DNA of 64,000 nucleotides from Gammaproteobacteria bacterium (GTDB lineage: Bacteria; Pseudomonadota; Gammaproteobacteria; Steroidobacterales; Woeseiaceae), in assembly GCA_029884165.1 (NCBI GenBank), contig JAOUIH010000012.1:1-64000 (forward strand). Direction: 5' to 3'. This document shows positions 28,665 to 32,138 of this stretch, piece by piece (the first letter of the stretch is position 1; each line of letters begins with the position of its first letter). Position numbers and translations under genes: made by a program. The notes beneath the pieces are model-generated. The model was not told the DNA's origin and did no database searches. It was given only the letters and a program-made list of their open reading frames with translations.

Positions 28665-30071
28665 TCAGGGGTTCAGCCCGAGCGCGTCGCCGAAGTGCAC
28701 CGAGATCACGAGGAACGCGATCGCCAGCACGAAGATCTTCGCCAGCAGCGGCACGGTGAATCGGACCCAGGCGCCGTAGGGGATCCTGCCCAGTGCCAGC
28801 GCACCCATCACGAGTGCGCTCGTCGGGATCATCATGTTCGTGAAGCCGTCGCCAAACTGGTAGGCGAGCACCGCGGTCTGCTGCGGCACACCGGTCAGCG
28901 TCGCGAGCGGCGACATGATCGGCATCGTCACGAATGCCTGGCCGCTGCCTGATGGGATGAAGAAGTTCGTGATCGTCTGCACCAGCAGCATGCCGACGGC
29001 GGACAGGTCCGGCCCGAATTCGCGCAGTAGGTTCGCGATGGAGTCGATCACCGTGTCGATGACCTGGCCGTCGGCGAGCACTACCTCGATCGTACGGGCG
29101 AAGCCGACCAGCAGCGCCGCAGCCGTCATCTCGGCCGCCCCCTCGATGAAGCTGCGGCTCGTGTCGGTCGGCGATATCCGCGCGATGGCGGCGGAGGCGA
29201 GCCCGATCGCGAAGAACACGGCAATCAGCTCCGTAATGTACCAGCCATAGAGCGCCGCACCGACGACGAAGCCGACCACGCCGGCGCCGAAGACGAGCAG
29301 CACGCCGAGCCGCGCGCCGCCCAGGCTGATGTCGGCCGGCGCCTCGAAGCCGCGGCTGTAGTCGACATGTGCGACGAGGCTCGTCTCCGGGGCCCGGCGC
29401 ACGCGCATCGCGTAGCGGTAGATGTGATGAAAGGCGACGGCGAGAAAAGCGCTCATCATGACCAGCCGGAACGCCCAGCCGGAGGTAATCGGCAGTCCGG
29501 CAATGTTCTGCGCGATGATGACGCCGAACGGGTTCGTGCCGGCGCAGGACCAGCCTATGCCATACGGAATCCAGACCAGCCCCATCGCGACGATCGCGTC
29601 CATGCGCATCGCGAGGCTCATCGAGACAATGATCGGTATCAGCGGCACGTATTCCTCGCCCATGCCGATCGTGTAGGAGCCGAAGCTGAACAGCAGCAGG
29701 CAGCCGGCGATCAGGATCCACGGGCTGCCCCCGAGTTTTGCGACCGCCGTGTGCAGCATCGCGTCGATCGCCCCGCTCTTCCGCAGGATCGCGATGACGC
29801 CGCCGGCGATGAAAATCAGGAAGATGATTTCCTGGGCCGCCTCGAAGCCCTTCGGGATGGCCAGCAGGAAGTACCACGGCGGGACGTCGACCCGGTCCGC
29901 CTCGCCGCTCCTCTCGTAGGTGTCCGGCACGACCATGGTCCGGCTCGGGTTCTCGGGATAGGGCACGCGTTCGAAATTGCCCTGTGGGATCATGAACACG
30001 AGGAGCTGCGCCACGACGATGATCGAGAACATCAATACGAGCGAGTCGAGCGACCAGGATCTCTTCTGCAC
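28665..30071 (-). CDS. YfcC-family carboxylate/amino-acid carrier
   Basis: This 468-residue membrane protein has about 12 hydrophobic segments and matches the YfcC branch of the C4-dicarboxylate DcuC superfamily. Typical blocks are VPPWYFLLAIPKGFEAAQEI, GSYTIGMGEEYVPLIPI and NFFIPSGSGQAFVTMPIMSP. Family members move dicarboxylates, arginine or related amino acids; the substrate is not determined. The GTG at 30071 is chosen because AAGGA lies 8 nt before it. The frame opens earlier, at 30170, but that part overlaps the terminator of the upstream gene. Confidence 0.85.
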   Translation of the reverse strand: MQKRSWSLDSLVLMFSIIVVAQLLVFMIPQGNFERVPYPENPSRTMVVPDTYERSGEADRVDVPPWYFLLAIPKGFEAAQEIIFLIFIAGGVIAILRKSGAIDAMLHTAVAKLGGSPWILIAGCLLLFSFGSYTIGMGEEYVPLIPIIVSMSLAMRMDAIVAMGLVWIPYGIGWSCAGTNPFGVIIAQNIAGLPITSGWAFRLVMMSAFLAVAFHHIYRYAMRVRRAPETSLVAHVDYSRGFEAPADISLGGARLGVLLVFGAGVVGFVVGAALYGWYITELIAVFFAIGLASAAIARISPTDTSRSFIEGAAEMTAAALLVGFARTIEVVLADGQVIDTVIDSIANLLREFGPDLSAVGMLLVQTITNFFIPSGSGQAFVTMPIMSPLATLTGVPQQTAVLAYQFGDGFTNMMIPTSALVMGALALGRIPYGAWVRFTVPLLAKIFVLAIAFLVISVHFGDALGLNP

Positions 30072-30145
30072 CGGCAGGGTCCTTGTTGTTATTCGGACGG
30101 CGTGCCAACGATAGCAAAATTGTCGCCTGTCGGCGGCGGCCATGA

Positions 30146-30178
30146 AAAAACCCGCTGCGCGTCCCTGCACAGCGGGTC
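30146..30178 (-). terminator. Rho-independent terminator of the repeat-protein gene
   Basis: Read on the minus strand, ACCCGCTG and CAGCGGGT (30171-30178 and 30151-30158) form an 8-bp stem followed by six T residues (30146-30151 as A on the plus strand). It lies 17 bp after the repeat-protein stop and separates it from the carrier gene. Confidence 0.85.
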
Positions 30179-30194
30179 CCGGCCCGGGTGCCGG

Positions 30195-30671
30195 TCAGGC
30201 GCCGTTGCGCCGTCGGGCCTGCCACCGCTCGGCATGCCGGCTGCGCTGGTCGAGACGGCGGTTGCTGCGCTCGCCCCGGTCGTCGAGGCGGCCGTCGATA
30301 CGGTCACCCCGATTGTCCAGCCGATGATTCGCGCGATCGCCGCGGTGATCCAGGCGTTGATCGATGCGGTCGCCGCGACGATCGAGGCGCGCCGCCGAGT
30401 TATCCCGGCCGGCGTCTGCCGCCCGGTCCGATGCGCGATCGAGGCGATCGTTTACCCGATCACCTCGCTGGTCCAGCCGCGCGTCCATACGGTCGCCGCG
30501 CTGGTCCAGTCGTTGGTCGATCCGGTCGCCGCGATCGTCCAGGCGCTCCTCGATGCGGTCGCCGCGCTCGTCGAGACGCTCGCCGGCATCGGCCCAAGCA
30601 GCCGGGACCGCGAGACCGAGGGCGACCAGCATCAGGGCCCGAGCTACCGATAAGTTCCGTGTGTTCATCAT
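30195..30671 (-). CDS. Secreted hendecad-repeat protein
   Basis: This 158-residue protein begins with a clear signal peptide (cleavage after AWA, about residue 27). Almost all of the mature chain is an 11-residue repeat with consensus RLDxRGDRIDx: five copies (32-86), an 8-residue spacer and five more (95-149). Leu and Ile fall at hendecad positions, so a long right-handed coiled coil or extended charged helix in the periplasm is likely. AGGAG precedes the paired ATGs, so it is translated. No known domain is recognised. It may shape the cell envelope or bind metal or DNA, but I cannot assign a function. Confidence 0.8.
   Translation of the reverse strand: MMNTRNLSVARALMLVALGLAVPAAWADAGERLDERGDRIEERLDDRGDRIDQRLDQRGDRMDARLDQRGDRVNDRLDRASDRAADAGRDNSAARLDRRGDRIDQRLDHRGDRANHRLDNRGDRIDGRLDDRGERSNRRLDQRSRHAERWQARRRNGA
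30225..30578 (-). repeat. 33-bp coding tandem repeat (ten units)
   Basis: Ten in-frame 33-bp units encode RLDxRGDRIDx hendecads, arranged 5 + 24-bp spacer + 5. Units 5 and 10 are the most diverged. Confidence 0.9.
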
Positions 30672-30836
30672 CCTGCTCCTGCCGAGTTGAGGGAATGCTT
30701 GTTGTCGATGCATACAACGCCCGCCGGGCGAGCGGGTTGACGGCGGCCGCGGCCGATTTGCGCCTATTGTCAAATTAGTTGTCAAATCGGGGCCGCGCGT
30801 GCTGTGATCGGTCCGCGCCAGACCAGGGGTATATCG

Positions 30837-32138
30837 ATGAACGTGACCGCCAGCGCCTTCGGCGCCGACATTGACGCGCTTTTCCGGCGCCACCGGCTGC
30901 GCGTCATGCTGGCGATCACGCTCGGCTACGGATTCATCTATACCTGTCGCCTGGGGCTCTCGATCGTCAAGAAACCGCTGATCGACGGCGGGATCTTCAC
31001 CGTCGAGGAACTCGGCATGATCGGGGCCGCCCTGTTCTACGGCTACGCGAGCGGCAAGTTCATCAACGGCTTCCTGTCGGACTACGTGCCGCCCCGGGTC
31101 TTCTTCTCCGCCAGCATTTTCCTGTCGGCGCTCGTCAATATCTTCATGGGCACGTCGACGCTGCTGTGGTTGTCGGTCACGCTGTGGGCGCTGAACGGCT
31201 TCGTGCAGGGCATGGCCGCGCCTTCGGCCGTCATCTCGATCACGAACTGGTTCAGCATCCACGAACGCGGCCGCTGTTACGGCATCTGGAGCGCATCGCA
31301 TTCGATCGGCGAGGGCCTGACGTTCTACGTCATCGCGGCGGTCGTCGCCGCCCTCGGCTGGCGCGCAGGTTTCGTCACGCCCGGTATTCTTTGCATCGCC
31401 GTTGCCGCCTGGGTGTATGCGTTCCTGCGCAATGCGCCGCAGACGATGGGACTGCCGGACATCAGCACATACAAGAACGAGCCAAGCGAAGCCGGCAAGA
31501 AACAGGAGACCTGGCGGACCCAGCGCGTGATCTTCGGCATCTCGGCCATCTGGGTCATCGCGATCGCGAGCGCGCTCATGTACGTGACACGCTACGCGGT
31601 CAACAGTTGGGGCGTGCTGTACCTGCAGGAAATCCGCGGTTACTCGCTGCTCGACGCGGGCTGGTTTCTCGCGATCAATACGATCGCCGGCATCGCCGGC
31701 TCGATCGCGTTCGGCTTCATTTCCGACAAGCTGTTCGATGCGCGCCGGCCGCCCGCGAACCTGATCTTCGCGATAGTCGAGGTATTGGCACTGCTCGTCA
31801 TTTTCTATGGCCCGAAGAACGACCTCGTGCTAACGCTCGCGTTCGCCCTGTACGGGGCCGCCCTCAGCGGCCTCGTCGCATCGGTCGGCGGGCTGTTCGC
31901 CGTCGACATCGCCCCGCGTGGCGCGACCGGCGCCGCGATGGGCTTCGTCGGCGTATTCAGCTACCTCGGGGCAGCGATCCAGGAAAACGTCAGCGCGTCC
32001 CTGATCAGCGACAACATGCAGCTCGTCGAGGATGTGCGCATCTACGATTTTGACGCCGCGATCGTCTTCTGGATCGGCACGTCGGTCGTGTCGATGCTGC
32101 TGGCCGCCTCGCTGTGGAACACGAAGATCCGGAACTGA
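30837..32138 (+). CDS. Organophosphate:phosphate antiporter-type MFS transporter
   Basis: This 433-residue major-facilitator protein has 12 predicted helices and resembles the GlpT/UhpT/UhpC group (FIYTCRLGLSIVKKPLIDGG, GASGKF-like YGYASGKFINGFLSDY, NWFSIHERGRCYGIWSASHS). Such carriers exchange phosphate for glycerol-3-phosphate or hexose phosphate; UhpC acts as a sensor. The ATG at 30837 has AGGGG 6-7 nt before it. It is followed after 25 bp by a HAD-type phosphatase gene, which suggests uptake and dephosphorylation of a phosphorylated sugar or polyol. The substrate is unknown. Confidence 0.85.
   Translation: MNVTASAFGADIDALFRRHRLRVMLAITLGYGFIYTCRLGLSIVKKPLIDGGIFTVEELGMIGAALFYGYASGKFINGFLSDYVPPRVFFSASIFLSALVNIFMGTSTLLWLSVTLWALNGFVQGMAAPSAVISITNWFSIHERGRCYGIWSASHSIGEGLTFYVIAAVVAALGWRAGFVTPGILCIAVAAWVYAFLRNAPQTMGLPDISTYKNEPSEAGKKQETWRTQRVIFGISAIWVIAIASALMYVTRYAVNSWGVLYLQEIRGYSLLDAGWFLAINTIAGIAGSIAFGFISDKLFDARRPPANLIFAIVEVLALLVIFYGPKNDLVLTLAFALYGAALSGLVASVGGLFAVDIAPRGATGAAMGFVGVFSYLGAAIQENVSASLISDNMQLVEDVRIYDFDAAIVFWIGTSVVSMLLAASLWNTKIRN

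Follow-up and report, generated by a model that had tools for sequence, protein, structure and literature searches.

The locus and its expression signals

The window, a stretch of 64,000 nucleotides from a Woeseiaceae genome, carries on its reverse strand a gene for a protein of 158 aa dominated by 11-residue repeats (hendecads). The features of the locus are:

30195..30671, reverse strand: hendecad gene, 158 codons plus stop, read as an open reading frame
30591..30671, reverse strand: signal peptide, residues 1-27, read by eye, with low AlphaFold2 confidence
30411..30590, reverse strand: N arm, residues 28-87, four regular and one degenerate hendecad, predicted helix 27-86
30402..30410, reverse strand: hinge core, residues 88-90, GRD in RASDRAADAGRDNSAARL, conserved, model break at 87-89
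30198..30401, reverse strand: C arm, residues 91-158, four regular and one degenerate hendecad and a basic tail, predicted helix 90-157
30676..30680, reverse strand: ribosome-binding site AGGAG, from the sequence
30716..30741, reverse strand: ECF-type promoter pattern GTCAACCCGCTCGCCCGGCGGGCGTT, with -35 GTCAAC, a 16-base gap and -10 CGTT
30144..30178, reverse strand: intrinsic terminator, 12-bp stem, 6-base loop and U-run after the stop, z -3.6

The stop codon ends at 30195 and the start is the ATG at either 30671 or 30668; the second shows a better spacing from the ribosome-binding site and agrees with homologues beginning MNT. The gene had been credited with its own ribosome-binding site and terminator, and both are recovered (AGGAG at 30680-30676; the 12-bp stem and its U-run). 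The terminator stem is absent from the output of a simple terminator scan, and Rfam gives no match in the window at gathering scores. A single clear hendecad copy is found in the window's genome.

Two transporter genes flank the hendecad gene, one of the MFS type (30804-32138, forward strand) and one of the DcuC type (28665-30170, reverse strand). Among Woeseiaceae-like relatives, the MFS gene lies beside the hendecad gene in 8 other loci and the DcuC-type gene in 7. These neighbours look like inherited gene order with no shared function. The GTG start listed for the DcuC-type gene falls inside the hendecad gene's terminator, and its real start is probably further in. An antisense frame of 428 codons (29367-30653, forward strand) is open across the hendecad gene and its neighbour; its openness looks like an incidental effect of GC-rich coding sequence.

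Repeat organization and charge

A signal peptide with its cleavage point (MMNTRNLSVARALMLVALGLAVPAAWA/D) can be read by eye and is followed by regular 11-mers, as expected from the preliminary description of a secreted hendecad protein. That description gave the arrangement as five units, a spacer and five units. The two blocks and the spacer are present, but each block contains four regular RLDxRGDRIDx units (beginning at residues 32, 43, 54 and 65 and at residues 95, 106, 117 and 128) and a degenerate fifth (RLDRASDRAAD in the N arm, RLDQRSRHAER in the C arm). The unit can be parsed as RxDx-RGD-RxDx, i.e. three Arg-x-Asp triplets with a 4+3+4 spacing. Hydrophobicity has its spectral peak at 3.66 residues per turn in the N arm and 3.64 in the C arm, near the 3.67 of 11/3 hendecads. 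Per-site divergence among the eight regular units is 0.20, 0.12 and 0.63 at codon positions 1, 2 and 3 respectively. Because the units differ mostly at third codon positions, the repeats are old and maintained by selection on the protein.

Placed on an 11/3 helix, the position table would give four stripes by our own geometry: Arg (positions 1/5/8), hydrophobic or Gly (2/6/9), Asp (3/7/10) and variable (4/11), the variable positions lying opposite the hydrophobic stripe. Gly occupies position 6 in every counted unit, but the counting pattern required Gly. In an alignment of 43 sequences (the window protein and 42 of the 44 loci described below) the repeat glycines G59, G100 and G111 and the hinge glycine G88 form invariant columns. 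One further family alignment comprises 28 sequences. The RGD triplet was dropped as an integrin motif since it is a mere consequence of the repeat. EF-hand and beta-solenoid readings of DxRGDRID were also rejected: no profile exceeds its cut-off and helices are predicted.

The mature chain is 54% charged and contains 9.2% Gly, no Cys, no Pro and a single aromatic residue (GRAVY -2.0). With a net charge of +3 the whole chain is indeed nearly charge-neutral, as first proposed, but this does not extend to the arms, which differ (-5 for the N arm, +8 for the C arm). The asymmetry is general: charge per residue is more positive in the C arm than in the N arm in all 46 proteins tested (46 of 53; in the other 7 the search pattern found no hinge). 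The difference lies largely at positions 4/11, where N arms tend to have acidic residues or Asn and C arms are rich in Arg.

A family of hendecad proteins

A scan of species genomes yielded 44 loci, with 43 credible relatives. They occur in Woeseiaceae and other gammaproteobacterial MAGs, Methylotenera, Rhodocyclaceae, Lysobacter, Pseudoxanthomonas and others, as well as in Nevskia, Cycloclasticus, Mariprofundus and Desulfobulbaceae. The closest named relatives would likewise put the window in or near the Woeseiaceae. A Streptomyces locus (L047; 34% identity, E 9e-5) was dropped as a probable unrelated coiled coil. Of 99 genomes, own included, 41 show a match at E <= 0.001 and 35 of those a strong one (E <= 1e-10). 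Homologues with different repeat numbers, proposed at the outset as something to search for, thus exist, and a complete lack of homologues, which would have pointed to a spurious gene, is ruled out by the same 43 relatives and 35 genomes. In a sample of 397 genomes across the phylum only 7 matches were obtained. Two of these, the window's own and that of genome G328, are clear, while the remaining five (E 2e-8 to 5e-7) are taken for unrelated coiled coils; the family is therefore rare outside its home groups.

For the window protein, every Pfam and NCBIfam model stays below its cut-off, in agreement with the first impression that it carries no known domain. The commonest weak likeness, seen in 35 of the 43 members, is to the Apolipoprotein profile (PF01442), which describes 11-mer amphipathic helices. 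Sequence comparison with solved structures returned only apolipoprotein A-IV (E 0.024 and 0.1). PHROGs gave weak matches only. The viral contigs and plasmids searched contain no relative and a phage or plasmid gene was set aside as far as could be seen. A literature search for peptide words of the repeat found no paper. With neither model nor paper found for the hendecad protein, the family is previously undescribed.

Two matched arms and a conserved hinge

The spacer between the arms is a conserved hinge across the family. Arm lengths range from 38+38 to 87+94 residues in single-module members, and those of the N and C arms covary (r 0.82, n 51). This count covers 51 of 53 proteins, leaving out L043 (no hinge) and L031 (doubled module), and the hinge position used for L022 is off by some residues. 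The correlation persists in phylogenetic contrasts computed on a tree of the hinge region (r 0.71, 50 independent contrasts). Both arms change in 39 contrasts, with equal sign in 32 of them; none of 1000 permutations scored as high as the observed contrasts. In the 268-aa protein of L031 (6001-6804), N arm, hinge and C arm occur twice in tandem, pointing to the whole module as the folding unit.

Structure prediction, recommended in the preliminary description, was run with AlphaFold2 and the family alignment. For the window protein it gives two helices, 27-86 and 90-157 (pLDDT 84.6), with a pTM of 0.57. For a Methylotenera relative the predicted helices span residues 3-74 and 78-123 (pLDDT 82.8, pTM 0.58), the first taking in the low-confidence signal peptide. 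The helix breaks at the hinge in both models. Mean pLDDT over the five models per job ranges from 73 to 85 for the window protein and from 77 to 83 for the second. The modest pTM values, the spread among models, the ease with which charged repeats are over-predicted as helix and a core Gly that is unusual for a stable helix count against the reading preferred here. The right-handed coiled coil proposed earlier is plausible from the periodicity and the two predicted helices, but finds no counterpart among solved structures (no Foldseek match at E <= 0.001). Weak alignments cover both helices (about 120-138 residues) of the PspA, Vipp1 and p85 iSH2 hairpins, from which a fold-back of the two helices may be read. 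With an rmsd of about 7-9 A, 6-14% identity and a Foldseek E of about 1 or worse, kinship is not claimed. In the fold comparison the best Z is 10.0 (8xku_C) and the lowest rmsd among rows of at least 130 residues is 3.3 A (a phage AP205 chain); Z values of 8-10 are usual for long helices, so the PspA, Vipp1 and iSH2 matches are within the ordinary range. The CpxP/Spy cradle fold does not appear in the fold-comparison listing, an absence that excludes nothing.

Judging from the conserved hinge and the helix break predicted there, the protein is most likely an antiparallel helical hairpin. It could instead be a disordered polyampholyte of the hydrophilin or LEA type that shields the periplasm and folds only on drying or membrane contact, the hendecads being weak amphipathic helices with no stable hairpin. 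This appears rather unlikely. Hydrophilins are recognised by a Gly content over 6%, and the glycine content and hydropathy of the mature chain place it within their range. The lack of Cys and Pro, the near absence of aromatic residues, the narrow hydrophobic stripe and the widespread Apolipoprotein likeness are also in favour of disorder. However, a disordered shield would not predict matched arm lengths together with a conserved hinge, and the confidence of the second model peaks around the hinge.

Packing raises another question. In a simple antiparallel hairpin with facing hydrophobic stripes, like would meet like, Arg against Arg and Asp against Asp, which runs counter to a hairpin. By the same geometry, drawn by us from the position table, the stripe order suits parallel packing better. 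Long rods might accordingly associate in parallel, as dimers to tetramers, with the Arg stripes of one chain paired to the Asp stripes of the next, the hinge being a kink and the length serving as an envelope spacer or ruler. Only parallel packing sets Arg opposite Asp, and hendecads are typical of right-handed bundles. Such an oligomer nevertheless leaves both the similar arm lengths and the strong conservation of the hinge unexplained, and we consider it unlikely. The main tension is thus between the charge stripes, which speak for parallel packing, and the matched arms, which speak for a hairpin. Side-by-side stacking of hairpins through oppositely charged outer faces might satisfy both.

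An ECF-type promoter pattern

Of 52 family genes, 40, the window gene included, have the pattern GTCAAC-N16-CGT in the 150 bases preceding the start, against a shuffle mean of 0.06 (counts refer to the 52 genes with at least 100 bases upstream). Its distance to the start is mostly 60-80 bases. The spacing is essentially 16 only, the CAAC-n-CGT counts being 1, 41 and 2 at n 15, 16 and 17. A looser form, GTC[AG][AT]C, is found for 47 of the 52 genes; 12 genes are without the strict site and 5 without the loose form. Among 382 neighbouring ORFs used as a control, whose starts were set mechanically, the strict form is absent and the loose form occurs once. In the betaproteobacterial loci L033, L034, L037, L039 and L044, GTCGTC replaces GTCAAC with the same spacing before CGTT. 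AAC and CGT boxes together with autoregulation are presented as ECF hallmarks in PMC8103513. The literature combining TGTCAAC and ECF gave unrelated matches only.

The same pattern precedes the sigma gene of the window's genome described below (contig C191, 2646-2671) and is found upstream of 24 of 30 ECF genes, own genome included. These 30 loci are the best-scoring 30 of 65, and the 24 were counted by reading the list. The hendecad promoter may thus be read by this sigma factor; the window's genome holds further ECF-like matches, AAC and CGT boxes are common to many ECFs, and another ECF could read it.

An ECF sigma factor operon as probable partner

Clustering of neighbouring genes revealed an RNA polymerase sigma factor adjoining the hendecad gene in 13 distant relatives, and a search profile was built from 12 of these 13 proteins. 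An ECF sigma factor is the next gene downstream, on the same strand, in 20 of the 43 loci, once in each. No other match to the sigma profile is present in the flanks at E <= 1e-15 (flanks extend up to 6 kb, some being shorter, and in one locus the available sequence stops within the sigma gene). The two linked sigma factors tested belong to the NF006550/PRK09047 type (230 and 231 bits, cut-off 173). In three operons tested, DUF3619 exceeds its cut-off in two and DUF3106 in all three; a DUF3106-type gene is near the hendecad gene in 11 loci. In genome G328 the sigma gene again lies just downstream of the hendecad gene.

The window's genome has one sigma factor over the NF006550 cut-off (C191, 2882-3415; 242.3 bits against 173) and 7 further ECF-like matches, all below it. 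The hendecad gene and this sigma operon are unlinked, lying on separate contigs. Beside the sigma gene are a DUF3619-like protein, a small exported protein and DUF3106. The DUF3619-like protein shows 35% identity to a DUF3619 match, while Pfam itself reports none. The small exported protein is acidic, is encoded between the DUF3619-like and DUF3106 genes (L104, 3773-4054) and reaches no Pfam cut-off.

The two genes also co-occur: in the 99 genomes both are found in 34, the hendecad gene alone in 1, the sigma factor alone in 31 and neither in 33 (Fisher p 1.8e-7, kinship ignored). Thresholds were E <= 1e-10 for the hendecad protein (35 genomes) and E <= 1e-30 for the sigma factor (65 genomes, 63 over the cut-off). 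Hence the sigma factor is present in 34 of the 35 genomes with a strong hendecad match, the single exception being 71% complete, and in 31 of the 64 others. In the phylum sample it occurs in 44 of 397 genomes. The literature searched contained no paper naming DUF3106 or DUF3619. A likeness to SbrI/SbrR of P. aeruginosa was dropped, the literature search having found nothing that ties SbrI/SbrR to an NF006550-type sigma. From sediment Woeseiales, transcripts of an ECF sigma annotated as SigV and of membrane-associated stress genes are reported (PMC7451513).

This linkage could also indicate that the hendecad protein senses a signal for the ECF pathway or feeds back on it, as a CpxP-like inhibitor or signal binder rather than a protective effector. 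In line with this role, the sigma gene follows immediately in 20 of 43 loci and DUF3106-type genes are near in 11, and such feedback loops are known for Cpx. Yet in the window's genome the gene is unlinked to the sigma operon and still keeps the promoter pattern, and 31 genomes have the sigma factor with no strong hendecad match, which makes a regulatory part improbable. A chance or decaying reading frame, to which the long open antisense frame (common in GC-rich DNA) might point, is refuted by the homologues, the third-position divergence among units, the conserved promoter pattern, the ribosome-binding site and the terminator, and the gene is real, as originally stated.

Candidate regulon in the window's genome

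A search for the strict site with CGTT yields 14 copies in the window's genome against 5 in a reversed control, so that about one third of the sites may be due to chance. Sites precede the sigma operon, the hendecad gene, a gene for an exported charged repeat protein (contig C81) and three lipoprotein-like starts (C14, C84 and C194). Most remaining sites fall inside longer frames. These targets, picked and judged by eye, look like envelope proteins, which would fit an envelope response. The charged repeat protein (L109, 1245-1803) contains MSPEER-type units and has a likeness to DUF3106 below the cut-off. Of its 8 relatives, 7 were assessed for the site and three carry it (L161-L163); two of the starts are doubtful.

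A proposed role in the envelope

Taken together, these data point to an exported helical protein that probably acts as an effector in an ECF envelope-stress system not yet characterised. The product would be exported, very likely to the periplasm, and almost purely helical, with two length-matched arms of 11-residue repeats that double back at the conserved hinge to give a long antiparallel hairpin. Each turn would display three stripes, of Arg, of Leu/Gly/Ile (narrow) and of Asp; positions 4/11, opposite the hydrophobic one, lean acidic on the N arm and are basic on the C arm. A single ECF sigma of the NF006550/PRK09047 type would read both the hendecad promoter and its own operon, composed of sigma, a DUF3619-like single-span protein (the likely anti-sigma) and DUF3106. 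Release of the sigma factor, presumably by envelope stress, would lead to synthesis of the hendecad protein with other exported charged helical proteins, and the hendecad protein may then shield or chaperone envelope components. The family, the matching of the arms, the hinge, the promoter pattern, the gene linkage and the co-occurrence are read from sequence and the helices are predicted; the periplasmic location, the closure of the hairpin, the use of the promoter by this sigma factor, the anti-sigma role, the inducing signal and the protective function are inferred. The early hint of expression under envelope stress thus gains specific support, at the level of sequence, from the ECF-type promoter and the ECF sigma partner. 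Promoter and partners give a clue to the circumstances in which the protein is made, which adds to its interest beyond the first impression.

A broader scheme may be entertained tentatively. The family could be a new class of periplasmic proteins, four-sided helical rods with Arg, Leu/Gly/Ile, Asp and variable faces that are folded into hairpins, whose length is tuned by hendecads added to both arms and whose oppositely charged outer faces let hairpins stack. It could represent the hallmark product of an envelope-stress system so far undescribed, made up of the sigma factor, a DUF3619 anti-sigma and DUF3106, in gamma- and betaproteobacteria and some zeta- and deltaproteobacterial lineages, acting as an ATP-free chaperone or an envelope scaffold.

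The analysis thus attaches a promoter pattern, a likely sigma factor and an initial candidate regulon to a family for which no model or paper was found. They point to an ECF envelope-response system with parts (DUF3619, DUF3106) not found named in the literature searched. The matched arms provide a natural length series for testing hendecad folding, and the Methylotenera relatives (L033, L037) are places to test the hendecad system.

Comparison with known systems

The arrangement resembles ECF regulons with an NF006550/PRK09047 sigma, DUF3619 and DUF3106 in its AAC/CGT promoter, in the site before the sigma gene and, judged by eye, in its exported products; the hendecad protein itself differs in reaching no Pfam or NCBIfam cut-off. 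CpxP and Spy (LTxxQ) are likewise small, exported, all-helical stress proteins, envelope-stress control being presumed for the hendecad protein. However, the latter has no LTxxQ match in the Pfam listing at E <= 1, and where CpxP/Spy form a globular cradle under two-component control, it would combine repeat arms and a hinge under ECF control. Apolipoproteins A1/A4/E (PF01442) have in common the 11-residue helical periodicity and the weak profile matches, but the hendecad protein scores 28.2 bits against a cut-off of 90, and RLDxRGDRIDx differs in presenting a single narrow hydrophobic stripe that includes a conserved Gly. Group 3 LEA proteins and hydrophilins are similarly built of 11-mer repeats, Gly-rich and strongly hydrophilic. 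The hendecad protein differs from them in being exported, in its matched arms and hinge and in its predicted folding.
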